From Candidatus Woesearchaeota archaeon (GTDB taxonomy: Archaea > Nanobdellota > Nanobdellia > Woesearchaeales > GCA-2687795), in contig NZBG01000012.1 of the NCBI GenBank assembly GCA_002687795.1, positions 1-33,037 on the forward strand: a stretch of 33,037 bases of DNA, given 5' to 3'. Positions 321 to 27,097 of the stretch are shown here, piece after piece. Position numbers and translations under genes: made by a program. The first letter of the stretch is position 1, and the number at the start of each line of letters is the position of its first letter. A model generated the notes under the pieces. That model had not been told where the DNA came from and searched no databases. It saw nothing but the letters and a program-made list of their open reading frames with translations.

Positions 321-3300
321 TTATTCAGGGTCTAAGATAGCGCTTATATTAACGCACTCTCCCCCTAAACACCTTATGCCAGCCGTAAAATTAAACAGTG
401 TATCTCTTCCAACCTCTATGCTTTCATTAAAGGGATAGGTAAGGAAAGGCTGCAGGGCTCCCCATGCGATTGTCCAGTTTGTTAAGCTGGTGGTTGATAA
501 AGACACATTGTCATAGCATGAAATCGTTATGTTCCATGCTCCGCTGTCAGCAAAAACATGGCCTGAAGTGTTATACACAAACCAGTCTGTTGTTGAGTAG
601 TTATAGCTGGATGAGTTAATAGTAACATTATCATCAGGATTGTTCCTTAGCGTATATGTCAGATTATTTATCCCGCTTGAGTCTGTGCAGTTTGCCCTGA
701 TATGGGTAAGGTTCTGGCCATAAAGAAGGGTTGTGCAGTCAATCCATGAAGCTGCTGTATCATTGCTGCACTCTACGCTGTTTATCACAGGGGCAGTTGT
801 GTCCAGGGTTATTATTCTTGTTACTGTGCTGTTCCTGTTATTTGCCTTGTCTTCTATTGTGACATTGTAATAATACACAGAATTTGAATCAAGGCTGGTG
901 AAATTAATGCTCCTGTTATTAGGGCCAAAGGCTGTTGTGTTTACATTATCTGTATTATTATACAAATAGAAAGTGATATTTACCTCATTGGTATCGCTTG
1001 CCGTTACATTCACATAAATCCAGTCCCTGTTGAAATATGTGTTATTATCTTCTGTGCCGTTTGCATAGCTTACTGATGGGCCTGTGATGTCAATGGTAAT
1101 ATTATAATAAGTGGTGTTGGTATTGCCGGCTTTGTCAGTTACTATTGCAGCCAGCTGGCAGAGCCCTTCATCAACACAGCCAAGCTCAGAGGCATTGGTC
1201 AGGTTGAACGAGAGATTACCTTGCGTCATTAATGAGCCGTTCAGGGTAACATTAGCCAGATAAAGGTCGCTTGCATTCACAGTAAAGTTTATTAAAACAT
1301 CATTCCTTGAAATATTATCTGTATCATTCGATCTTAACTCTAATATGCCTGGGCCTGTTGAATCTAAGGTTATTCTTCTTATTTCTGTTGCTGCCAGCTG
1401 GTTTATATCATCTCTGATAGTGACATTATAAAGATAATATTCATTATCATTAAGGCCTGTGAAGTTAATGCTCCTGTTATTAGGGCCGAAGGTTGTTTTA
1501 TTTACCAGGCTGGTTGAATTATCTAAAGAGAAGCTTATATTAGCCTCGTTTGCATCAGCAGCTGTTACATTCACATAAATCCAGTCCCTGTTAAAGTATG
1601 AGTCGTTTGCTTCCGTGCCCCCTGCAAATTCTATAGAAGGGAAAGTGGAATCCATGGTTATTATCCTGGCCTCTGTTGAATTTATATTATTAGCCTTATC
1701 AACAACACTAACATTATAATAATAAACCATATTAGAACCAAGACCTGTAAAATTAATGAACGTAGTGCCATCTGTATAATTGGTATTATTAACCAACTCA
1801 AGAAGGCTATTATATAGGTAAAACCTTGTCTCATTTTTATTAGTATCTATTACTGAAACATTAATGTAAATCCAGTTCACTTTGATATCTGTATTGTTAG
1901 CCTCTGTGCCACCAGCATAGGATATTGATGGAACAACCTGGAAGTATGTTAAAGGAAGATAATCATAATTAGATCCATCCAAACTGTATGAAGTATCACA
2001 AATACCATCTTCATTTGTATCATTACATGTTTCTGAAAATCCTGTGCCATCTGGTTCTGCCCAATAATTACCTCCTATATTAGGGCCACCTATTATACTA
2101 GTGCCTGTTATTTTAGTTGTGTTGAAGTAGTTTGTTAGCTCTGTATTATTATAATAATTAACTGTATTATTGAGATAGTTGTTGAAGATCAAGTTATACT
2201 CTGGATTACCAGTAAACGCCTGAAAATATAAACCATATACAGAATTATTCTCTATATACGAACTGTTAATTGTATTATTATCACTTTCAGCATAAAAATT
2301 AATTCCATATAGAGAGTTTAAATTTGCTGTGAGATTTATAAATGTGTTATTAACGCCATAGTCAAAGTAAACACCACTTTGAGAATTTGAATTTGCTGTA
2401 ATATTAGTAAAGGTATTACTGTTACTTCTAGAAAAACGGAAGCCATAGTAGTTTCCCGAAGAATTTATGTTTGAAAAAACAGCATTATCTGTTCTATGTA
2501 TGAAAAGTTCGTTATTCTGCTTTGAATCAGAACCTATTATAGTTACATTATCAACAGTTGAACCATCCGCGTCACAGAGAATAAGTGAGGAGAGTATTTT
2601 GTCTTGGATTGTTGCTGAATAATTATAAACTTCAATCGGCCTATTGCCTGAACCAGTTATATCAGTAAAGTTATTATTACAATCTGTCTTACTATTAGAG
2701 CCAACAGTGATATCATATCGAGTATTTTCCTGAACTGTTATGTTTTTTAGAATATTGCCTGTACTATAAGTTAAAGATATACCATAAACAACATGATTAT
2801 TGAGGGTAATATCAGTAAATCTATTATAATCACTGTTGGATGCAGAGAGGCCGTATACACCATCATTGGCTGTAATGTTGGAAAATACATTACTATGAGA
2901 ATTACTCATTCTGATACTATATGTACTATTACTGAATGAAGAGTTTTTGATTATATTGTTATCAGCAGAGGAAAAGTCCAGATTATAAAAGAATTTTGAG
3001 ATACTACAGTTCATTATCGTATTATTATCGCTGCCACTATCAAGAAGGAGACCAGTGTCTATTCCGGATTTATCACCTTCAATATAATAATTCTGACAGT
3101 CAAAGGTAACATTATCAGAAGAATTAAAGTCAATACAATTTCCACTGATACCTGATATTGATTGATTAAGCCTTACTATATCCCCTGGACTTGCATTTAC
3201 AATAGCTCCAGCACAATCAGAACAACTGGAACAATTGTATATATTACCTGCCTTTGCCCAGTTGTTTGCATATTCTATATTTCCTCCAAAGTTGAACTCC

Positions 3301-3608
3301 AATGTATGTTTTCCTGGTGTCAAGACTTTGCTTGTTTCATATCCAGTTTCATCACAATTATAATCCTCAACAAACAAAGAATCATTTATCCATTCATAAT
3401 CCAAAACAGTTTGATTACACCTAATCTCTAAGAACCTTAAGTCATATAATGTTGAATTCTCGCTAACATTACTCCCTGTTGTCCCATTAGAAGCCTTAAT
3501 CGTAAGATTTCCAACACCAGTTGTATTAAACATAACAGTCCAATTCCCGCCAACAGTAGGATAGCTTTGCGCATTAAGAATAGTAATTTCCAGCTCATAG
3601 CTTTGATT
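321..3608 (-). CDS. Giant surface glycoprotein, C-terminal part after the in-frame TAG: NosD-like beta-helix plus Ig-like repeats
   Basis: The track begins this ORF at an internal Met (3533). The same frame runs open back to the TAG at 3609-3611, adding 25 codons (NQSYELEITILNAQSYPTVG...). That stretch directly continues the '...VDYVEWIVPSL' end of the upstream ORF, so this is most likely one protein with 3609-5573. Visible domains in order: a linker; a long right-handed parallel beta-helix of NosD/CASH type (repeated N-NTF-NIT-N-S-YGI units, about nt 3160-2030); a GGNYW plus Ca-binding-like 'DTNEDGICDT' strip; then Ig-like repeats to the C-terminus. It is extremely Asn-rich with very many N-x-S/T sequons, as expected of an exported, N-glycosylated cell-surface protein. 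It ends abruptly at 'SAILDPE', so the C-terminus may be shortened. It could instead be a separate gene with a non-AUG start; I see no such start with a good ribosome binding site. Confidence 0.75.
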   Translation of the reverse strand, partial: NQSYELEITILNAQSYPTVGGNWTVMFNTTGVGNLTIKASNGTTGSNVSENSTLYDLRFLEIRCNQTVLDYEWINDSLFVEDYNCDETGYETSKVLTPGKHTLEFNFGGNIEYANNWAKAGNIYNCSSCSDCAGAIVNASPGDIVRLNQSISGISGNCIDFNSSDNVTFDCQNYYIEGDKSGIDTGLLLDSGSDNNTIMNCSISKFFYNLDFSSADNNIIKNSSFSNSTYSIRMSNSHSNVFSNITANDGVYGLSASNSDYNRFTDITLNNHVVYGISLTYSTGNILKNITVQENTRYDITVGSNSKTDCNNNFTDITGSGNRPIEVYNYSATIQDKILSSLILCDADGSTVDNVTIIGSDSKQNNELFIHRTDNAVFSNINSSGNYYGFRFSRSNSNTFTNITANSNSQSGVYFDYGVNNTFINLTANLNSLYGINFYAESDNNTINSSYIENNSVYGLYFQAFTGNPEYNLIFNNYLNNTVNYYNNTELTNYFNTTKITGTSIIGGPNIGGNYWAEPDGTGFSETCNDTNEDGICDTSYSLDGSNYDYLPLTYFQVVPSISYAGGTEANNTDIKVNWIYINVSVIDTNKNETRFYLYNSLLELVNNTNYTDGTTFINFTGLGSNMVYYYNVSVVDKANNINSTEARIITMDSTFPSIEFAGGTEANDSYFNRDWIYVNVTAADANEANISFSLDNSTSLVNKTTFGPNNRSINFTGLNDNEYYLYNVTIRDDINQLAATEIRRITLDSTGPGILELRSNDTDNISRNDVLINFTVNASDLYLANVTLNGSLMTQGNLSFNLTNASELGCVDEGLCQLAAIVTDKAGNTNTTYYNITIDITGPSVSYANGTEDNNTYFNRDWIYVNVTASDTNEVNITFYLYNNTDNVNTTAFGPNNRSINFTSLDSNSVYYYNVTIEDKANNRNSTVTRIITLDTTAPVINSVECSNDTAASWIDCTTLLYGQNLTHIRANCTDSSGINNLTYTLRNNPDDNVTINSSSYNYSTTDWFVYNTSGHVFADSGAWNITISCYDNVSLSTTSLTNWTIAWGALQPFLTYPFNESIEVGRDTLFNFTAGIRCLGGECVNISAILDPE
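790..1935 (-). repeat. Ig-like domain repeats inside the surface glycoprotein
   Basis: Three diverged copies of a roughly 95-aa unit are visible, with a fourth, different Ig-like unit between copies two and three. Each copy has a GTE-(A/D)N start, then 'W-IYVNV(T/S)', 'INFT-L---YYYNV(T/S)' and ends near 'RIITLD-T-P'. Approximate nucleotide spans are 1935-1645, 1642-1350 and 1084-790. Two copies also keep long DNA-level matches, for example CATAAATCCAGTCCCTGTT near 1015 and 1577. This is consistent with tandem duplication of a structural stalk domain. Confidence 0.8.
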
Positions 3609-3611
3609 CTA
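3609..3611 (-). other. In-frame amber codon (TAG) inside the giant surface-protein frame
   Basis: The minus strand reads CCT TCA CTT TAG AAT CAA AGC. The frame of the 5573-start ORF and of the 321-stop ORF is identical, and this TAG (codon 655 of 1750) is the only stop between 5573 and the TAA at 321-323. The residues on either side, WIVPSL and NQSYELEI, form one continuous motif. From memory of related archaeal surface proteins this motif normally reads WIVPxLSNQ(S/T)YE, so the TAG sits where a serine would be. A single C-to-A change in TCG would produce it. Confidence 0.9.
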
Positions 3612-5573
3612 AAGTGAAGGAACAATCCATTCAACATAATCAACAAGTCCATTTGAATTAGTATCAAACTTATCAATACTAACCTCCTGCCTAGAACCAT
3701 TCACAAGCCAATATAACCTTACAGCTTCTTCATTAGCTTCAACAGGAAGATAAGTATAACTCAGTATATCCTCATAATGAATATCCGAAGAAACAACAAT
3801 CCTCTTCTTATAATCAGAAATAACAACCTCTTCAGCAGTTGGACCTTCAGTATAGTATTCAACCTCAATCTCTTCAATCAAATCTTCAATAATAATTTCT
3901 GTAATATTCTGTTCTTCACTTGAAGCTAAACCAATTACAGCTCCTGTAATCATATTACTCTTTTTAGGCTCTATACCTCTCTTCTCATTCTCATACTCTC
4001 CCAGACTTTTTACAACATTATCCTCAACAACCTTAATCTTTGACTTATCTAATTCAATGTCATTAACGATATCCTTCACAGAAACATTGAACGCTCCTTT
4101 AGTAACATTAACCCTAATGCCAGCCTCCTTTTTATCCAGTTTAACCCTCTTCACCCACTTAACAGGTCTGCCGATAACAACCCTTGTCCTGTTAATCTTC
4201 TCAGTCTCTTCCTCAACTATCTCACTCACACTAACCCTAAACACATTGCTAACAGCAACAAGCGAAGAATCATTAGCAACAAAAAACATGCTTCTGCTCC
4301 CAACAAATCCAGAAGCAGAAACAACAGCAATCTCACCATCAATAGAAACATTCAAACCTTCAGCCTCATAATAAGAATACGAAAGAACATCACCATCCTC
4401 ATCAACGAAATACTCCCTCAAATTAATAGTATAATTCCCTCCCTCAACAAGCTTAACATCAGAAACATTCCTAACCAGTTTAGGAGCATTATTAATCTCT
4501 CTTTCCTTTTCCACAGTATAAGAAACACTCTCTACTTCCAAAGTACCATTCTCCACTTCAAAAAATAAAGAATAACTGGAAGCATTAAGACCTGGCAGCA
4601 GGCAGGTCTCCAAACAGAAATCGTTAATCTCAGTTTTGGGGGTTGAGAACCTAACGCTTAGATCAGAAACCCCGCTGTAAGCTACCTCTGCCTCCAGTTT
4701 TTTAAAATCGTAATAAGCATAAACAACCTGAGCGCTAACAACATTATCATACCCAGTTCCTTCCTTCTCTAAATAACTGTAATAAACATCATCCCATTCA
4801 GAAGAATCACTATCCAGTCCTAAGAACCCGCAGCACTCCTCCACTCCATGGCAAACATGATTAACATTCTCCCCTGAATTAACACTCCATCTAGTACATA
4901 AATTACTAGAATTAACCTCAAAATCAAACTCAGTATCCTTCACTGATAAATCAACAACACCATCAATCTCTTCAACACCATCATTATCAATATCAAAACT
5001 GCTATCATTATAATAATTCAAAACTAACTTAATAGTCTTATTCAAAACTGTTTCATTCAAAACTGTTAGGTTTTGAATGAACTTAGAAATCTGCTCTTCA
5101 GATTTCTGGTTTCCCAAAAATTCTTCGAATTTTTCAGGATGCTCAGAAACATTAGTTTCTGACATATTAACCTCAACCTGCTCTTCCAACGTTTCATTCT
5201 CAATGCTCTCATTCAAAACAGCAAATCCTGTAACACCAGCCAACCCACCTTCATCAGACTGAGAAGAATCAAAAATAAGATAATCAGTATCCCCCTCTCT
5301 CAGATAAACCTTAGCAAAACCTTCACCTGAAAACCTTGCATCAATACTAACCCTCTTCAAACTCCCTTCATTCATCAAAGACCATGAATAACTGCTTGAC
5401 TCATTCACTTCCAATCCTAAATACTCTGTATAATTATTCGTCTCAGACACGCTAATATAACCAGTAAAAGCAGGCTTAATAAAGAAAACAGCAAGAGCTA
5501 TCAAGGACAATACAAATGCCACTACAAAAATCTCTGATACACTAATCTCTCTCTTACTTTTACCTTTTTTCAT
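3609..5573 (-). CDS. Giant surface glycoprotein, N-terminal part up to the in-frame TAG
   Basis: The start is placed at the internal Met (5573, MKKGKSKREISVSEIF) rather than the track start at 5615. GAGGAG lies just upstream of it, and the upstream gene overlaps only 14 nt. This gives 654 residues before the TAG. A basic N-terminus is followed by one hydrophobic segment (IFVVAFVLSLIALAVFFI), acting as a signal anchor or signal peptide. The extracellular region then has a beta-rich stretch, an acidic coil, a Cys-containing module (CHGVEECCGFLG), a cadherin-like 'DEDGDVLSYSY' domain and a dockerin/EF-hand-like 'DTNSNGLVDYVE' just before the stop. Sequons are abundant. The protein is probably a cell-wall, S-layer or adhesin-type component; substrate and partner are unknown. 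It is co-transcribed with the RHH gene upstream. Confidence 0.8.
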   Translation of the reverse strand: MKKGKSKREISVSEIFVVAFVLSLIALAVFFIKPAFTGYISVSETNNYTEYLGLEVNESSSYSWSLMNEGSLKRVSIDARFSGEGFAKVYLREGDTDYLIFDSSQSDEGGLAGVTGFAVLNESIENETLEEQVEVNMSETNVSEHPEKFEEFLGNQKSEEQISKFIQNLTVLNETVLNKTIKLVLNYYNDSSFDIDNDGVEEIDGVVDLSVKDTEFDFEVNSSNLCTRWSVNSGENVNHVCHGVEECCGFLGLDSDSSEWDDVYYSYLEKEGTGYDNVVSAQVVYAYYDFKKLEAEVAYSGVSDLSVRFSTPKTEINDFCLETCLLPGLNASSYSLFFEVENGTLEVESVSYTVEKEREINNAPKLVRNVSDVKLVEGGNYTINLREYFVDEDGDVLSYSYYEAEGLNVSIDGEIAVVSASGFVGSRSMFFVANDSSLVAVSNVFRVSVSEIVEEETEKINRTRVVIGRPVKWVKRVKLDKKEAGIRVNVTKGAFNVSVKDIVNDIELDKSKIKVVEDNVVKSLGEYENEKRGIEPKKSNMITGAVIGLASSEEQNITEIIIEDLIEEIEVEYYTEGPTAEEVVISDYKKRIVVSSDIHYEDILSYTYLPVEANEEAVRLYWLVNGSRQEVSIDKFDTNSNGLVDYVEWIVPSL

Positions 5574-5850
5574 ACTCTCCTCTCTTCCCCATAAGTCCCC
5601 AAATAACCTCTTCATACGATTGTCTAGGATGAATCTTCAACTTAGAAAGAACACTCACAGTCCTCTTCTTCAGCTTAATAGTAGTAATCCCCTTAATACC
5701 CTTAGGACCTCTACTAATCTGTACATCAGAACCCTTACCCTTCAGCCCCAGAATAACCTCTTCATAGCTTTGCCTTGGATGGATCTTTAGTCCTGACAGA
5801 AGTCTAACTGTGCTCTTCCCTAATTTAATGGTCGTGATCTCTTCTTTCAT
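5560..5850 (-). CDS. Double ribbon-helix-helix DNA-binding protein, candidate repressor
   Basis: Ninety-six residues made of two near-identical halves. Residues about 3-39 and 54-90 each read (I)TTIKLxKxTVxxLSxLKIHPRQSYEEVIxGLxGK. This is the archaeal ribbon-helix-helix pattern of VapB-like antitoxins ('KIHPRESYDEVI'): a beta strand (TTIKL) followed by two helices. RHH proteins normally dimerise; two RHH units in one chain would make a built-in pseudo-dimer. The gene overlaps the start of the giant surface-protein gene by 14 nt and is first in that transcript. Its promoter carries an array of ATACTT/AAGTAT half-sites (5856-5901), which suggests autoregulation and control of the surface protein. 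No toxin partner is adjacent, so a solitary regulator is more likely than an antitoxin. Confidence 0.72.
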   Translation of the reverse strand: MKEEITTIKLGKSTVRLLSGLKIHPRQSYEEVILGLKGKGSDVQISRGPKGIKGITTIKLKKRTVSVLSKLKIHPRQSYEEVIWGLMGKRGEYEKR

Positions 5851-5985: not shown

Positions 5986-6660
5986 ATGAAACTCGCAGAG
6001 CTAAAACAGCAGGGCGTCCCGGACTTTGCAATAAATTATTTCACAAGCAAAAAAATCCTTAATCTAAACCCCGCCCAGGAAAAGGCGGTAAAGGCAGGGA
6101 TCCTTGAAGGAAAAAGCACACTAGTCTGCACACCCACTGGCTCTGGAAAAACAGCAATAGCAACATTTGCCCTAACAAAAACCCTAACAGAACACCCTGG
6201 CTCAAAAGTTGTTTACCTTGTCCCCCTAAAAGCATTAGCCAACGACAAATTCAGGGAATACCAGGAGCTGCTAAAAGACACAGGCTTCAGGGCAATCCTA
6301 AGCACTGGCGACATAGACTCAGGCTCTGACTGGCTAGGCAAATACGACCTCTTAATCTTAACAGTAGAAAAAATGGACTCTTTGCTAAGGCACCACTGTT
6401 CCTGGCTTCATGATATAAAATGCGTAATCTGCGATGAAATACACCTCCTTAACGATCCAGGCAGAGGGCCAACATTAGAAGTTCTTCTAACACTGCTAAA
6501 AGACCTAAACAACATGCAGATTATAGGCTTATCAGCAACAATAGGAAACCCTGAAGAATTAGCAGAATGGCTCAATGCAGAACTAGTCTTAGACAACTGG
6601 AGGCCTGTAAAATTATCCAAAGGAATCTATCATCAGGGTGAAGTAGAATTCTATGACTAA
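5986..6660 (+). CDS. Hel308/Ski2-type DNA helicase, first RecA domain only (truncated)
   Basis: The 224 residues contain the N-terminal motor domain of a superfamily 2 Ski2-like helicase: Q-motif-like 'LNPAQEKAV', Walker A PTGSGKT, motif Ia 'PLKALANDK', motif II DEIH and motif III SATIGN. It closes with 'WRPVKLSKGIYHQGEVEFYD', which in Hel308 marks the end of RecA domain 1. Hel308 proteins are about 700 aa. Here a TAA stops the frame exactly at the domain boundary, and RecA domain 2 (motifs IV-VI), the winged helix and the ratchet are absent. The following DNA codes for a small protein on the other strand, so no frameshifted remainder is visible. Such a fragment could bind ATP but is unlikely to unwind DNA alone. 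It may be a relic, or part of a split helicase encoded elsewhere. Confidence 0.8.
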   Translation: MKLAELKQQGVPDFAINYFTSKKILNLNPAQEKAVKAGILEGKSTLVCTPTGSGKTAIATFALTKTLTEHPGSKVVYLVPLKALANDKFREYQELLKDTGFRAILSTGDIDSGSDWLGKYDLLILTVEKMDSLLRHHCSWLHDIKCVICDEIHLLNDPGRGPTLEVLLTLLKDLNNMQIIGLSATIGNPEELAEWLNAELVLDNWRPVKLSKGIYHQGEVEFYD

Positions 6661-6797: not shown

Positions 6798-7985
6798 CTA
6801 GACAAACTCAGCAATCTTCTTAACCTGCTCAACAAACTCTTCACACTCTTCCTTAGTATTATAAACATAAAGAGAAACCCTTGCACTACCATTCATCTTA
6901 TTAGCATTAAACCATGAATGAACACAATGTGCTCCGCTCCTTATCATTATGTTAGAGCTTTCATTCAACATAGTTGCAATATTATGAGGATTCATACCTT
7001 CAATATTAAAACTGAACACTCCTCCTCTCTTATCAGGCTCTTCAGGCCCTATAATCTTCAATCCTTTCACATCTTTCAAACCTTCAGTAATCTGTTTGTT
7101 AAGCATAACCTCATGCTCATGAATATTATCCAAACCAATCTTTTTCAGATACCTAATAGCTTCACCTAAACCTATTATCCCTGCATAGTTCTGTAATCCT
7201 GCTTCAAACCTCTCAGGAATATCTTCAAACTCATGCTCTGTATAAGTTGTTTCCTTAACAGTATCTCCTCCAACCAAAAACGGCTTAAGTTCCTCCAAAA
7301 GTTCAAGTTTTCCATACAAAACTCCAGTGCCGCTAGGCCCAAGCATCTTATGGCCTGAGCATGCAAGAAAATCCACATCAAGCTTTCTAACATCAACCTC
7401 TTTATGAGGAGCTGACTGTGCAGCATCCAGCAAAACCAAAGCATTATTCTCATGCGCAATCTTAATCATTTCCTTAACAGGATTAGAAGTGCCATCAAGG
7501 TTAGAAGTATGCACAATAGAAACCATCTTAACACCTTTAACCTTCTCCTTAAAATCCTCAATATCGCCAAACTTAAAAATACGATGCTCAACTTTATCAT
7601 TAACCTGCCATGGCAAAAGGTTAGAATTATGCTCTTTATCAGAAGTAAGCATAATATCATCCTTCTCAAACTTAAACGAATTAGCAACCAGATTAATAGA
7701 CTCTGTTGTATTCTTAGTGAATATTATCTCCTTCTCAGACTTTGCATTAAAAAACCCTTTAACCTCTTTCCTTGTCTTCAGAACCTCTTCATCAACCTGT
7801 TTCCCTAATTTATGTATGCTCCTCCCGCCGCATGCAGGAAACTCATTATAATACCTGTTGATAGCCTCAATAACCTGCTTAGGCTTCATGCTCACGCATG
7901 CAGAATCCATATAAATAATTGGCTTCCCATTGATATCTCTATCATAAACAGGGAAATCCTTCCTAATCTTCTCAGTATCAATCAT
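6798..7985 (-). CDS. sufS: SufS/CsdA-type cysteine desulfurase (class V aminotransferase fold)
   Basis: The 395 aa match the usual size of the SufS/NifS-like group II desulfurases. These PLP enzymes take sulfur from cysteine as a persulfide for Fe-S cluster or thio-nucleoside synthesis. Visible features: N-terminal 'YMDSACVSMKP', the 'LLDAAQSAPH' PLP pocket, the Schiff-base lysine in 'CSGHKMLGPSGTGVLYG', and the active-site cysteine in 'IRSGAHCVHSW' (the SufS RSGxHC pattern). Its ATG overlaps the DsbA-like stop by 4 nt and has a GAGGAG site inside the upstream gene, so the two are translationally coupled. No SufBCD or SufE/U is in the window. The stop codon is TAG, showing that TAG is a normal terminator here. 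The specific acceptor is unknown. Confidence 0.9.
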   Translation of the reverse strand: MIDTEKIRKDFPVYDRDINGKPIIYMDSACVSMKPKQVIEAINRYYNEFPACGGRSIHKLGKQVDEEVLKTRKEVKGFFNAKSEKEIIFTKNTTESINLVANSFKFEKDDIMLTSDKEHNSNLLPWQVNDKVEHRIFKFGDIEDFKEKVKGVKMVSIVHTSNLDGTSNPVKEMIKIAHENNALVLLDAAQSAPHKEVDVRKLDVDFLACSGHKMLGPSGTGVLYGKLELLEELKPFLVGGDTVKETTYTEHEFEDIPERFEAGLQNYAGIIGLGEAIRYLKKIGLDNIHEHEVMLNKQITEGLKDVKGLKIIGPEEPDKRGGVFSFNIEGMNPHNIATMLNESSNIMIRSGAHCVHSWFNANKMNGSARVSLYVYNTKEECEEFVEQVKKIAEFV

Positions 7986-12936: not shown

Positions 12937-13680
12937 CTAATGCTCAAAGATAAATTTAATCCCAAACATAAACAATATTCCAATCACAAAAAAAATGAAT
13001 GAGCTCAATGATTTCTTCAAGTCAGGCTCCTTATGCAGCTCAGGAATAAGGTCAGAGGCGGAGATATAAATAAACCCTCCTGCAGCAAAAGGCAAAATAA
13101 AAGGAATAATCCCTTCAACTGAGCCAGACAAAAAATATCCAATAACCCCTCCGGCAACACAGATGATCTGCGAGACAAAATTATAAGTTAAAGCCTTTAC
13201 CTTACTAAACCCCCCATAAACCAAAGCGCCAAAATCCCCCAGCTCCTGCGGAATCTCATGGCCTATGATAATAAGGCTTGTAACAATCCCAAAAGGAATG
13301 CTAACAAAAAAGCTTGCAGCGATGATCAGCCCGTCAATAAGGTTATGTATGCTATCCCCAAACAAAATCAGATAGGTAAAAGGATGCTCATCACATCTCC
13401 CAGTATGGCAGTGATGCCAATGAAGGAACCTCTCAATAAGAAAGAACACTATAAACCCAACCAGCAGATAGCCAAATGCTTTTGTTGTAGATAGTTCTTC
13501 TAAAGACTCAGTTAACAGATGAAACAATGAGCCGCTCAGCAAAGCACCAGCGGAAAAAGCAACTAAGATAATAAGTATCTTCTTAAGCAGCCTGTCTTTC
13601 ATCCATAATGAGAAAATGCCGATTAATGATATAAAGCCAACTATAGATGTCATTAATATTATCCATAACAAAATGCTCAT
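12937..13680 (-). CDS. ZIP-family divalent metal transporter
   Basis: The 247 aa have about eight membrane spans, as in ZIP (ZupT-like) zinc/iron uptake proteins. The metal-binding signatures are present: 'FGDSIHNLIDGLIIAASF' (HNxxDG) in TM4 and 'IIGHEIPQELGDFGAL' (HEIPQE) in TM5. A His/Cys-rich loop before them (HWHHCHTGRCDEHP) is the usual cytosolic metal-sensing loop. The ATG is 3 nt after the stop of the zinc-ribbon gene, making it last in the rnfC-rnfD-zinc ribbon-ZIP operon. It probably imports zinc or ferrous iron; the Fe-S and zinc proteins upstream could be the users (inference). Confidence 0.9.
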   Translation of the reverse strand: MSILLWIILMTSIVGFISLIGIFSLWMKDRLLKKILIILVAFSAGALLSGSLFHLLTESLEELSTTKAFGYLLVGFIVFFLIERFLHWHHCHTGRCDEHPFTYLILFGDSIHNLIDGLIIAASFFVSIPFGIVTSLIIIGHEIPQELGDFGALVYGGFSKVKALTYNFVSQIICVAGGVIGYFLSGSVEGIIPFILPFAAGGFIYISASDLIPELHKEPDLKKSLSSFIFFVIGILFMFGIKFIFEH

Positions 13681-18794: not shown

Positions 18795-19859
18795 TCAGTA
18801 ATTCAGCTTAAACCTCAACACAGCCCCTATGCCACCTAAACCTTCAAGCTTCTTGCCAGCTTCATTATCCCCGCTGATGATAAAAATCTCAGCCTTCATC
18901 TGCTCTGTCAGCTTCATCAGCTCTTCAATTTCACTAAATCTATTCTCCTGCCTGCTCTTTTGTATCAAAGAGTCTGTAACCAATAATTTGGTAACAGCGC
19001 CAGCATTAACAGCCCCTTTAACCTCTTTTAATCCATAAGCCGCCAGATTATCCTTAGAAATCTCCTTAAAAAGCTCCTCAACAAGCCCCATTTCCTTTGC
19101 AATCCTTTCTTTCTTTAGGATATTCCTTATCTCATCCCTTTTTAAGACCTCGTTAACCCCTGAGCTGCCTGTGTTAGAGCAGGTAGCCAAAACAATCTTT
19201 TTCTTTAATTCCTCGTTCTTAGCTGTCTTCATCAGCTCTTCCTTCCAGAACGCAGGAGAAGCAAGCAGTATATGCCTTATCTTATACCTTTTATCATATT
19301 CTTCTATCTTCCTTATAATATCAGAATAAAAAGTATTCTTTACATTGACCCCTTCAACCTTCTTACTAACATCCCCCTTAAGATGAGAAAGCAGCTTATA
19401 GCCCTGCTTCTTAAGCAACCCAAAATCAGCCTCTTCCCTGTCAAAAACGCAGATTAGAATATCCTCCTTCCTTTGCTCCTTTGCCTCTTTCAGCCTATCT
19501 AACTGGAACTTCAGCCAATGCTCTTTAATAACAGTTATCACACTATTCTCTTCTATGTTAAATGTATGGTAAGAGCCTTTCTGGACATCCTCAGGCCCTT
19601 CTATGATTATCCCCGAGACCCTTAAAATATCAGAATACTTATGAAACTCTAACTTCTCCGCTTTTATAGAGATAAAGACATGTTTCTTAGCAACCTTCTG
19701 CGCTCTCTCGCCTTCCTTGCCAAGCTTGATCTTTCTTATTGTTTTCCCCCGGACTATATCCTCAGGCTCTATAACCTGGCTTAGATACCATAAATCATCC
19801 ATGGTTTTTATCTTAACAGTAACCAATCCTTTTTTGGCATTTTGCTTTATTATATCCAT
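18795..19859 (-). CDS. pelA: Pelota (aPelota), mRNA surveillance and ribosome rescue factor
   Basis: The 354 aa resemble release factor aRF1 in domains 2 and 3. Domain 1 is Sm-like: 'GLVTVKIKTMDDLWYLSQVIEPEDIV', typical of Pelota, which lacks the GGQ and NIKS motifs of aRF1. The central domain holds 'DREEADFGLLKKQGYKLLSHLKG'. The C-terminal eL30-like domain includes 'EVKGAVNAGAVTKLLVTDSLI' and ends with 'GIGAVLRFKLNY'. With aEF1A and ABCE1 it dissociates stalled ribosomes. It is leaderless, sharing a palindromic TATA box with the divergent gene at 19913. Confidence 0.95.
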   Translation of the reverse strand: MDIIKQNAKKGLVTVKIKTMDDLWYLSQVIEPEDIVRGKTIRKIKLGKEGERAQKVAKKHVFISIKAEKLEFHKYSDILRVSGIIIEGPEDVQKGSYHTFNIEENSVITVIKEHWLKFQLDRLKEAKEQRKEDILICVFDREEADFGLLKKQGYKLLSHLKGDVSKKVEGVNVKNTFYSDIIRKIEEYDKRYKIRHILLASPAFWKEELMKTAKNEELKKKIVLATCSNTGSSGVNEVLKRDEIRNILKKERIAKEMGLVEELFKEISKDNLAAYGLKEVKGAVNAGAVTKLLVTDSLIQKSRQENRFSEIEELMKLTEQMKAEIFIISGDNEAGKKLEGLGGIGAVLRFKLNY

Positions 19860-19912: not shown

Positions 19913-21112
19913 ATGTTTAACAGAAAAAAGGGCCAGACGAGTCCTGGCGGGCAAGCCGCGTCACTTATAGGACTTATATTGCTATTGATTGTTTTCTATA
20001 TAGTGTTTCTTCCGCCATCTGAGAGAGAGGCTTTGTTGGACGGTGATGGTGATGAAGATGATGGAGATGATGACAATGGGGAAAATATCAATGAAACCCT
20101 GCTCTCGGAAGCTGTTGGCACATTATCTTATCTTGGGAAAGATAAGGTTGAAAAAACCATCCCGAACATCTACCTGTCTGAAGCCACAAACGCTAAAGAA
20201 ATTGAAAAATTTAACCCTTTTTATATAAAAAACAGCTGGTTCGACAAGAAATCCAAGACCCTAAGTTTTAATATAGACAATCTTGAAAACACTGATAATT
20301 TTATACTATCTTTTAAGGCAAGGACACATAAAGGAATCCTCACAATAAAACTAAACGAGAGGGTAATATACGAATATAGCGTTAACAAGCTTGACGTTGG
20401 GCCTATTAAGCTTAAGAAGGACTTGTTAAAAGAAAATGATAACGTTCTTGAATTCTCTGTTTCCGGCATAGGCGCAAAGTTCTGGAAAACAAATGAATAC
20501 AGCATAGAGGATACAAGAATTTTTGCTGATATAACAGACCTCAGCAGGCAAAAGAGCCAGAACATATTCATCCTCACAAGCGGGGAGTACCAAAACATAA
20601 ACAAGGCGAAAATAAGAATGATTCCTTACTGCTCCGGGCAGGAAAGCGTTGGCGTACTGAACATCTGGATAAACAACCATGACATTTACTCATCCTTGCC
20701 TGTATGCGATGACCCTATTGTACAGGAAATCCCTATTGACATAATAAACATAGGAGAAAATAATATAGTCTTCAAGTCAGATGACGGCTCTTATTCTGTT
20801 GAGCAAGTAAGATTAACATTTGACCTGAAAGAAACAAAATCTGTGACATACTTCTTTGAGCTGGAACAAGAAGACTATGATGACATCACTAATGAAGACA
20901 AGAGCGCTTACTTAAAGCTGGAATTTGTTGATGATGATGAGCCAAAGGAAGCGGAGATAAGCGTTAACGGCCATAAAGTAATGGTAGACCAGACAAAGCC
21001 GGAATATTCAAGGAGAATAGACCACTGGGTAAAGGCCGAGAACAACTATGTTATAATCAAGCCAAAGACGTTGCTGAAGATTGTCAGCATGGATATTTAT
21101 CTTGAGGATTAG
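19913..21112 (+). CDS. Membrane-anchored surface protein with acidic linker and beta-sandwich domains
   Basis: The 399 aa start MFNRKKGQTSPGGQAASLIG, followed by one hydrophobic helix (LILLLIVFYIVFLPP) and an Asp-rich low-complexity linker (DGDGDEDDGDDDNG). The ectodomain is beta-rich and appears to hold two or three jelly-roll-like units; 'FYIKNSWFDKKSKTLSFNID' and 'NIWINNHDIYSS' are visible strand-rich parts. The KKGQ-S-GQAA start resembles archaeal class III (pilin-like) signal sequences, but the helix is followed by a linker, so a simple anchor is as likely. I recognise it only as a conserved type in small-genome archaea, with no known function. The stop codon is TAG. Confidence 0.65.
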   Translation: MFNRKKGQTSPGGQAASLIGLILLLIVFYIVFLPPSEREALLDGDGDEDDGDDDNGENINETLLSEAVGTLSYLGKDKVEKTIPNIYLSEATNAKEIEKFNPFYIKNSWFDKKSKTLSFNIDNLENTDNFILSFKARTHKGILTIKLNERVIYEYSVNKLDVGPIKLKKDLLKENDNVLEFSVSGIGAKFWKTNEYSIEDTRIFADITDLSRQKSQNIFILTSGEYQNINKAKIRMIPYCSGQESVGVLNIWINNHDIYSSLPVCDDPIVQEIPIDIINIGENNIVFKSDDGSYSVEQVRLTFDLKETKSVTYFFELEQEDYDDITNEDKSAYLKLEFVDDDEPKEAEISVNGHKVMVDQTKPEYSRRIDHWVKAENNYVIIKPKTLLKIVSMDIYLED

Positions 21113-21958: not shown

Positions 21959-23671
21959 ATGCAAGAAAAATTAAAAGAGATAGCAAAGAAAACCGAAGGC
22001 TCTGAATTCTATACATCATTTCCTCGAGGCTACAAGCCAGGAAAAACAAAATACATCATAACCACAGGCTCGGTTATATCCGGTGTGGGAAAAGGAACAT
22101 TTTCCTCCTGCCTTGGCAGCATGCTGAGGATGTATCATGGGCTTAATATAACCCCTTTAAAATTTGAATGCTATGTAAACTATGACGCAGGCACACTAAA
22201 CCCTTACAGGCATGGAGAAGTCTTTGTTCTTGATGACGGCACAGAAACAGACCTTGACCTGGGAACATATGAAAGGATGCTTAACAAAAGCCTGACAAAA
22301 AACAGCTTTGTAACAATGGGCAGGGTCTTCAAAACAATAATAGACAAAGAAAGGAAAGGCGATTACCTTGGCAGAGACGTAGAATTTATTCCTCATATAA
22401 CAGGCGAAATAAAAAGCTTTGTAAGAAAGCTTGCAGTCGAATCAAAAGCTGACATTCTCATGATTGAAATCGGCGGCACAGTTGGAGAGATCCAGAACTC
22501 TCTCTACCTTGAAGCGATGAGAGAGCTTGCATATGAAGAAGGCAGGCAGAACGCATGCTTCATCAACGTTACCTACATCCTTCAGCCAGGCTCTCTTGGA
22601 GAGCAGAAAAGCAAAGCAGCCCAGCTGGGAATAAAAGCCCTGATGAGCGTTGGCATACAGCCTGACATAATAATCTGCAGGTCTGAAAAGCCCATAACAG
22701 AAAAAATCAAGGAAAAAATAAGCATATACTCCAATGTCCCAGTCTCAAGAACGATAGGCTTCCATGACACAAGGAACATATACAAATTCCCGTTAACGCT
22801 AAAAGAAAAAGAAATTGACAAAGCTGTTCTTGAAATCCTAAGCCTCAAGCCAGGCAAATCTGTTCCTGAGCTGAAAAAATGGAAAGAGCTTGTAGAAAAA
22901 ATAGACAAAGCTGAAAAAGAAATAACAATAGGCATGGCAGGAAAATATACAAACGTCCATGACTCTTACATAAGCATACTAAAAGCATTGGAGCACACTG
23001 CGCCATATTATAATGCATCCATAAAAATAAAATGGATAGAAGCTGAAGAAATAGAAAAAGGCAGAGTTTCTGTTAAGGACGCCCTAAAAGACATTGACGC
23101 CCTCATTGTCCCGGGCGGCTTTGGCAAGAGAGGCACAGAAGGAAAGATTGAATGCATAAAATATGCAAGAGAAAACAATGTACCCTTCCTTGGCTTATGC
23201 TTCGGCTTCCAGATGGCAGTCATAGAATATGCAAGAAACATGTGCGGAATAAAAGAAGCAAACTCCACAGAAGTTGAGCCCGAATGCAAAGAAAACGTGA
23301 TAGACTTCCTCCCTGAGCAAAAAAAGATAGAAGGCCTTGGGGGAAATATGAGGCTTGGCAGTTATCCAGCAGTCCTCAAAAAAGGAAGCCTTGTCTGTGG
23401 TTTGTATAATAATGAGAAGATAGATGAAAGGCATCGCCATAGGTATGAAGTAAACAATAAATATGTTGAGCAGCTGGAAAAGAAAGGGCTGGTTTTCTCA
23501 GGCAGATCCCCAAAAGGAAACCTTATGGAATTCTTAGAGCTCCCCGGCCATAGGTTCTTTATAGGAACCCAGGCTCACCCATGCTTCAAATCAAGGCCAA
23601 GCAGCCCAAGCCCTGTCTTCTCCGGGCTGATTAAAGCTGCTCTTGAACATTCTCAGAAAAAGTCTACATAA
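21959..23671 (+). CDS. pyrG: CTP synthase with altered glutaminase triad
   Basis: The enzyme makes CTP from UTP, ATP and glutamine. The start is placed at the second Met (21959), 25 bp after a TATA box; 570 aa. An extra N-terminal stretch of about 25 aa precedes the synthase domain, whose ATP loop is 'ITTGSVISGVGKGTFSS'. 'EIGGTVGEIQNSLYLEA' and 'PITEKIKEKISIYSNVP' are also family signatures. The C-terminal class I glutamine amidotransferase domain has oxyanion 'VPGGFGKRGTEGKI' and nucleophile 'FLGLCFGFQMAVIEYARN'. The His/Glu pair, normally HPEF, reads 'AHPCFKSRPSSPSPVF': His is kept, but Glu is Cys (codon TGC, 23582-23584). Glutaminase activity may therefore be altered. The 3' end overlaps the convergent DHH gene by 8 bp. 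Confidence 0.93.
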   Translation: MQEKLKEIAKKTEGSEFYTSFPRGYKPGKTKYIITTGSVISGVGKGTFSSCLGSMLRMYHGLNITPLKFECYVNYDAGTLNPYRHGEVFVLDDGTETDLDLGTYERMLNKSLTKNSFVTMGRVFKTIIDKERKGDYLGRDVEFIPHITGEIKSFVRKLAVESKADILMIEIGGTVGEIQNSLYLEAMRELAYEEGRQNACFINVTYILQPGSLGEQKSKAAQLGIKALMSVGIQPDIIICRSEKPITEKIKEKISIYSNVPVSRTIGFHDTRNIYKFPLTLKEKEIDKAVLEILSLKPGKSVPELKKWKELVEKIDKAEKEITIGMAGKYTNVHDSYISILKALEHTAPYYNASIKIKWIEAEEIEKGRVSVKDALKDIDALIVPGGFGKRGTEGKIECIKYARENNVPFLGLCFGFQMAVIEYARNMCGIKEANSTEVEPECKENVIDFLPEQKKIEGLGGNMRLGSYPAVLKKGSLVCGLYNNEKIDERHRHRYEVNNKYVEQLEKKGLVFSGRSPKGNLMEFLELPGHRFFIGTQAHPCFKSRPSSPSPVFSGLIKAALEHSQKKST

Positions 23672-25064
23672 TATTCTTTCTTAACATATTTTTTGCAATC
23701 TTGATAAACTCTTCCTCCTTCTCTGAAGGTATGATCGCGCCGGCTGCCTGGGGATGGCCTCCTGAATCCCCGCAACCCACTTTCTTAATGATCTCTGTAA
23801 TAATCTGCCTTAAATCAACATCCTCAATGTTGCTCATACTTGCTATCCTTAATGAAACCTTCACCGTATTCTCCTCTGTCCTTGCCAAAGACATGATATA
23901 AGTGCCCTCCTCAATATTATTAGACCTTGACAGGATAGACGCAATAGTGCCGATCATTGAAGGCATAATATTATCCTTTGCATTAATAATCATCAGGCCC
24001 TTTTCTTTAAATATGCAATCTGAATCTTTATTCTCAGTATGCCACTTCAACGCTTTCACTATCTCTTTCTTATACTCATTAAGATTATTAATCGCCTTTC
24101 GCTTGGACTTCTCCTCATTTAAACAAACGCCAATCCCCAAAGACGCCTTATTAAGCCTGCCGCAGGAATTAAGAAGCGTGGAAAACTCTTTTGCATCCCT
24201 CAAAGGGCACTCCTTATCTTCCTCTATAAGCGTATACACATTGCCCAGAACATCCTCCGGATTCTTTTCAGCTGACCTCTTTAAGATAATAGCTGTCACA
24301 AGCTTCTTCATCTCATCTTCTGTCAGATGTATAAGCTTTCTCCAGCCTTTCTCTGTTTTTGGGTTGATGCCTACCTGGTCAAGAAACTGTATAACGCCTG
24401 ACTCAGAGCCAGTCACCCCTGGAATATAAGGGTCTGAGCAGTACTCCAGCACTTTATGGATTGGCTTTGTCTGCGCCCCAAATATCCTCAGCCCCTTTTT
24501 AACTTCAATCTTCTTCCCGCTAACCGCAATATCCAATATATCCCTATTCAGCCTCTGAAAACCGTTCTCCTCCTGCACATCCCCAATAGCCCCTATCACC
24601 GCTATATGCGCCATATCAATATTCTTATCCAGAGAAGAACAAAAAAGGTAAACAACCCCTGCCCCCGAAATTTCCTTTCCCCCGTCTATGCCAAACAGGT
24701 TAGGATTAATATGATAAGGAGACGCCTGTTTATCCTCAATCTCATGATGGTCTAAAATAAAGAAATTCTTATTATGGAACAGCTTCTTAATGCTGTTAAA
24801 ATAAGCGCTCCCCAAATCTGTAAAAATAAAAGTATTATAATCCTCCTTAGAAAGCTCTTCCAGCACCTCCTCACTCAGCTGCTGTACTATAGAAATAGAA
24901 TATCTCCTGTTCTCAGATGTCAGCAGCTTGATTAAAATAGAGCATGCGCAGATGCCGTCGCAATCCAGATGGGAAACAACCCTCACAGCTCCATTTTTAT
25001 CTATCTTCCTGAATTCTTTAGCGCTTTCTCTTAGATGCTCCCTAAAAAGCTCATACTTATCCAA
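23664..25064 (-). CDS. DHH-family RecJ-like phosphoesterase
   Basis: The 466 aa carry the DHH and DHHA1 domains of archaeal RecJ-like single-strand nucleases/phosphoesterases. Motifs: 'RVVSHLDCDGICACSIL' (motif I), 'TFIFTDLGSAY' (II), 'FFILDHHEIED' (DHH, III), 'AVIGAIGDVQE' (IV), and C-terminal 'GCGDSGGHPQAAGAII' (DHHA1 GGGH-like). Archaeal homologues include GAN, which binds GINS at the replication fork, and other RecJ-like exonucleases; which one this is cannot be decided. It follows rps15 by 17 nt. The track start at 25064 is TTG, and no Shine-Dalgarno or nearby ATG is evident, so the exact start is uncertain. The stop is TAG. Confidence 0.88.
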   Translation of the reverse strand: MDKYELFREHLRESAKEFRKIDKNGAVRVVSHLDCDGICACSILIKLLTSENRRYSISIVQQLSEEVLEELSKEDYNTFIFTDLGSAYFNSIKKLFHNKNFFILDHHEIEDKQASPYHINPNLFGIDGGKEISGAGVVYLFCSSLDKNIDMAHIAVIGAIGDVQEENGFQRLNRDILDIAVSGKKIEVKKGLRIFGAQTKPIHKVLEYCSDPYIPGVTGSESGVIQFLDQVGINPKTEKGWRKLIHLTEDEMKKLVTAIILKRSAEKNPEDVLGNVYTLIEEDKECPLRDAKEFSTLLNSCGRLNKASLGIGVCLNEEKSKRKAINNLNEYKKEIVKALKWHTENKDSDCIFKEKGLMIINAKDNIMPSMIGTIASILSRSNNIEEGTYIMSLARTEENTVKVSLRIASMSNIEDVDLRQIITEIIKKVGCGDSGGHPQAAGAIIPSEKEEEFIKIAKNMLRKNIM

Positions 25065-26967: not shown

Positions 26968-27007
26968 AAGCGATACGAGAAAACATAAAATAGCCCTGTC
27001 AGGATTC
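26968..27007. repeat. 40-bp direct repeat, copy 2: overlaps the true tRNA-Gln 3' end
   Basis: Matches 26854-26893 with a single difference (GATA here, GATG in copy 1). Bases 26991-27007 are the 3' end of the tRNA gene; 26968-26990 are its downstream flank. Confidence 0.8.
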
Positions 27008-27075
27008 GAACCTGAGTCGCAAGGTCCAGGGCCTTATGCTTAAATTTGCATGCTTGACCACTACACTACAGGGCT
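26991..27075 (-). tRNA. tRNA-Gln (anticodon CUG) with an internal insertion of about 12 nt
   Basis: Read leftward: acceptor AGCCCTG/CAGGGCT with discriminator A; D arm GTGTAGTGGTCAAGCAT; anticodon stem TAAGG/CCTTG around loop CCCTGGA (anticodon CTG, followed by GA); variable loop CGAC; T arm TCAGG-TTCGAAT-CCTGA. These match archaeal tRNA-Gln. The gene is 85 nt instead of about 73: roughly 12 extra nt lie between the D arm and anticodon stem (near 27037-27048). They are flanked by an AAGCAT duplication and can form ATGC-n8-GCAT. Position 33 would be C instead of the usual U. CCA is not encoded. A TATA box is well placed upstream. The insert may be a very short intron at an unusual site, or a defect. 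Confidence 0.8.
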
Positions 27076-27097
27076 ATAATGCAAGAATATCCAAAGT

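Follow-up and report, generated by a model that had tools for sequence, protein, structure and literature searches.

Many of the internal stop codons found in genome assemblies are errors (PMC11017572), and some conserved internal stops have been argued to be read through (PMC7918605). In archaea, in-frame TAG codons are known from the methyltransferase genes of methanogens, in which they encode pyrrolysine. We analyzed an in-frame TAG in a giant surface protein gene carried by a window of 33,037 nucleotides (the whole stretch of DNA under analysis). The window is contig C12 of an archaeal MAG of 925,456 bases in 39 contigs (75.8% complete). The gene content of this MAG and its relatives point to an archaeon of DPANN type. 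Our results indicate that this TAG very probably represents an isolated nonsense substitution, at a codon whose serine is invariant in relatives, in the consensus of one MAG, arising by mutation or by assembly error. The codon most likely originates from a single-base mutation or an assembly error in one genome, and not from a novel use of the genetic code.

Translation of positions 321–5,615 on the minus strand showed that 324–5,615 forms one frame, closed by a TAA terminator at 321–323 and interrupted by a single internal stop, the TAG at 3,609–3,611. This confirms the original prediction that the two open reading frames annotated here share one frame and are separated by this stop only. The upstream part (3,612–5,615, minus strand) contains 668 codons from the ATG at 5,615, with an alternative ATG at 5,573, and encodes a probable N-terminal membrane anchor followed by a beta-rich ectodomain. 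The hydrophobic stretch IFVVAFVLSLIALAVFFI (5,478–5,531, minus strand), recognized by eye from the translation, is a probable signal anchor or transmembrane segment. The downstream part (324–3,608, minus strand) consists of 1,095 open codons that encode a NosD right-handed beta-helix and then Ig-like repeats, as had been anticipated from the translation; the best Pfam stretch of the beta-helix lies at 2,046–2,552 on the minus strand (PF05048, E = 2.8e-22; PF13229, E = 7.4e-15). At 38% GC, simple arithmetic predicts approximately 70 stops by chance over 1,095 codons and none was observed, so the open downstream frame is not a chance product. The codons of this part present no decay over its entire length.

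The motif at the site reads WIVPSL*NQSYELEI (the asterisk marks the stop), as compared to WVVPSLSNQTYELE in a paralogue on contig C11 of the same genome. This paralogue shares 50% identity across 728 aligned columns spanning the site and is uninterrupted, with a serine encoded by TCT. In a congener (G001), the paralogue on contig C71 is likewise uninterrupted and carries a serine encoded by AGC. The same-genus orthologue (G001:C37, L090:1) is 74% identical to the upstream part, and its contig breaks off at EWI, five codons short of the position that corresponds to the TAG, which leaves the nearest comparison missing. We then used a query of 107 amino acids around the site to search 288 genomes of the order and found the module in 97 of them. 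Among the approximately 160 places listed, the stop was present only in the window's own copy, and most of the matches listed lie in open frames of 1,000–4,000 codons. When the 44 distinct homologous sites were read codon by codon, all encoded serine (TCT 13, TCA 10, AGC 9, TCG 5, TCC 4, AGT 3), which corresponds to the invariant alignment column S94. Judging from the sequences compared, the long continuous protein is the normal form. Every homologue supports the continuous giant protein that had been proposed.

The region could alternatively comprise two separate genes, the downstream one starting at the ATG at 3,533, which sits 25 codons past the TAG. These 25 codons (NQSYELEITILNAQSYPTVGGNWTV; 3,534–3,608, minus strand) are, however, the remainder of the conserved module (alignment A1), and the methionine at 3,533 is an ordinary residue of this module (GGNWTVMFN in the paralogue and in the congener copy). 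Moreover, the downstream piece would have neither signal nor anchor, and no homologue among the matches listed is split here. We consider this arrangement, which was already disfavoured, extremely unlikely.

A structural model of the module (mean pLDDT of 86) places the serine in a turn between strands 83–92 and 96–102. According to this model, ending translation at the TAG would deprive a folded domain of one of its strands, which argues against a planned end point and is compatible with a tolerated one. The module, centered on WxVPxLSNQ(T/S)(Y/F)E (window 3,336–3,890; alignment A1), had no Pfam match here, and a fold search of the PDB returned nothing at E ≤ 0.001 (best E = 0.028). It constitutes an uncatalogued surface domain.

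We further analyzed the usage of TAG in this genome. Of the 464 genes that are conserved between the two congeners and have a terminal stop, 88 end with TAG, 258 with TAA and 118 with TGA. The end position agrees with that of the congener for 72 of 84 TAG genes, no less often than for the other stops (204/225 for TAA and 84/100 for TGA). In the window itself, the genes at 6,798–7,985, 12,937–13,680, 19,913–21,112 and 23,664–25,064 all end in TAG, and the genome encodes the release factor aRF1. TAG is an ordinary working terminator in this genome and is not reassigned, in agreement with the original prediction, which had cited other TAG-terminated genes of the window. A second and weaker match to the aRF1 family (59 bits, below the cut-off) was found at 18,795–19,859; its product is probably the mRNA-surveillance factor aPelota.

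The use of TAG as a terminator in 88 conserved genes, at conserved places, also speaks against the idea that pyrrolysine or a suppressor tRNA decodes TAG in this organism. The C-terminal domain of PylS (TIGR02367) had no match at E ≤ 10 in this 75.8% complete MAG, and the control in Methanosarcina acetivorans was positive. No CUA anticodon was found in the 30 tRNA-like frames of the genome, whose tRNA set is incomplete, or in the 22 of the congener; the tRNAs of the MAG are rich in introns and difficult to detect, and the assembly is incomplete, which makes this a weak test. A missing tRNA is conceivable for these same reasons, and they are what keeps the idea alive; we regard decoding by pyrrolysine or a suppressor as highly improbable.

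Several tRNA candidates were considered and set aside. The single TCTA match reads as tRNA-Arg(UCU). The tRNA gene of the window (26,990–27,076) was rejected as a CUA tRNA, its loop containing no CUA; it has an unusual intron, apparently inside the anticodon stem, and is miscalled by ARAGORN. Its loop, CCCTGGA, suggests tRNA-Gln(CUG). The L014 tRNA, also miscalled by ARAGORN, reads as Arg(UCU) after removal of a stem intron. Finally, a SeC(UCA) call by ARAGORN (G000:C33:9235) proved to be an intron-containing tRNA-Gly(CCC) and is neither an opal nor a Sec tRNA.

Programmed or leaky read-through is a further explanation: most ribosomes would stop at the TAG and yield a short anchored protein, while a fraction would continue and yield the giant protein. 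As this explanation expects, the frame past the TAG is intact and looks like protein-coding sequence. The congener also possesses a paralogue consisting naturally of the N-terminal half only (G001:C43, 687 aa), and both lengths could therefore be useful. In addition, a second giant surface gene (C31, 7239) is interrupted by an in-frame TAG, in its case at a repeat position occupied mostly by tyrosine. In bacteria, in-frame stops conserved under purifying selection have been reported (PMC7918605). Here, however, the TAG is conserved in no homologue, the genome's own paralogue included, and the residue that it replaces is invariant elsewhere. The 103 nt from the TAG onward fold no better than shuffled sequences (z = 0.46). 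The context TAG-AAT-CAA is not known to be leaky, which also counts against read-through. Finally, read-through in archaea has been demonstrated only for Sec and Pyl (PMC8211752). Read-through at this site is thus very unlikely. Also very unlikely is the joint reading in which a leaky TAG sets the ratio of the short anchored protein to an extended form of approximately 1,760 aa and the lineage as a whole tolerates single in-frame stops in its large surface proteins.

The original prediction had listed read-through or suppression, phase-variation-like loss, a recent nonsense mutation and a sequencing error as options. The last two survive. For the first, no conserved TAG, decoding machinery or stimulatory context was found, as described above. 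For the second, no simple repeats were seen by eye around ccttcactttagaatc, and phase variation by repeat slippage has no basis at this site. An assembly chimera at a repeat was also rejected: within 190 nt, the site has no 16-mer in common with other contigs of the same genome.

The third-codon-position style is unchanged across the TAG and shifts approximately 50–80 codons later, from T/G-rich to C-richer, in a zone at 3,365–3,455 (minus strand) that is likely a mosaic junction. The position of this shift, 60–75 codons downstream of the TAG, together with the lack of a common 16-mer, makes a join exactly at the TAG unlikely. The C-terminal third of the giant protein resembles a different surface gene located beside rpl14e in the congener (L125:5511–7190). 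This likeness and the change in codon style suggest domain shuffling of the downstream part.

We then searched for other isolated in-frame stops in the two genomes, using two-way tblastn on non-overlapping ORFs (approximately 150,000 aligned codons each way). In the genome of the window, three were found: the TAG described here, a TGA at a tryptophan on contig C1 and the TAG at the mostly tyrosine repeat position on C31. The congener presented three as well, with TGA at tryptophan twice (L186:6910 and L192:1703) and TAA at glutamate once. By simple arithmetic, alignable isolated stops occur at approximately 1–2 per 100,000 codons, a similarly low frequency in both genomes, which would amount to an erroneous or mutated base about once in every 10,000. 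This level is compatible with consensus error or recent mutation. Stray stops of all three types occur in both genomes, and the TAG analyzed here matches this background of stray nonsense changes.

The TGA on C1 (G000:C1:22048; L101:2048–2050, plus strand) lies in an Elp3-like gene, between 375 and 213 codons; the congener has a tryptophan at this site and is 75% identical over 580 aa. Of the six isolated stops that could be aligned, three are TGA at tryptophan, which is above our expectation, and leaky reading of UGA by tRNA-Trp is a possibility. The C31 gene (G000:C31, L081:7239, minus strand) encodes the second giant surface protein, with 748 and 1,611 codons on either side of its TAG. Its context is CK*CIPNW, as compared to CDYCAPNW, and tyrosine is found in most of the aligned repeat copies. 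Separately, we observed that the gene of a Cys-rich surface protein (G000:C16, L066:7511, plus strand) contains an in-frame TGA, flanked by 1,282 and 700 codons, at which the aligned residue is not conserved. We also observed in the window a short helicase-like ORF of 224 aa (5,986–6,660) ending in TAA, whose congener counterpart (L090:2449–3147) is likewise short and ends in TAG; the short form seems conserved.

On the favoured reading, the serine codon was turned into TAG by a nonsense substitution in the sampled strain or by a base error in the assembly. We infer that a recent, undecayed mutation in the sampled strain and a base error in the consensus are about equally likely. A single-step origin from serine would require TCG, the codon used at 5 of the 44 homologous sites, and a real mutation could also have followed a two-step path to TAG through another stop or another residue. 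If the TAG is real, aRF1 would end translation there, and the product would be a membrane-anchored stub of approximately 650–670 aa ending inside the membrane-distal beta-domain. Such a stub would lack the last strand of this domain as well as the entire NosD beta-helix and Ig stalk; the loss of the helix and stalk on truncation had been foreseen. Some points count against an isolated nonsense substitution: TCG is rare in this genome (2.2 per 1000 codons), the downstream codons are undecayed, and the C31 surface gene also bears a TAG, which could be cited in favour of read-through.

These results show that the alarming stop occurs in a single assembly only and that the protein is normally made in its giant form. 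In practice, the annotation should describe one interrupted gene and not two proteins. If read-through were true, it would represent the first archaeal case beyond Sec and Pyl, which are the only demonstrated cases listed in a review (PMC8211752).

Relative to described systems, the locus resembles the pyrrolysine methyltransferases of methanogens in presenting an in-frame TAG in an archaeal gene, but here PylS is absent, a serine is replaced and the product is a surface protein with no link to methylamines. It shares an intact downstream frame with the prokaryotic in-frame stops for which read-through has been proposed (PMC7918605); the defining sign of those stops is conservation and purifying selection across relatives, whereas the stop is found here in one genome only. 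As regards the spurious pseudogenes of assemblies (PMC11017572), the stop may here be a real mutation as well as an error, but the likeness is otherwise direct: one isolated and non-conserved stop, in a gene that is otherwise intact and whose relatives are uninterrupted.
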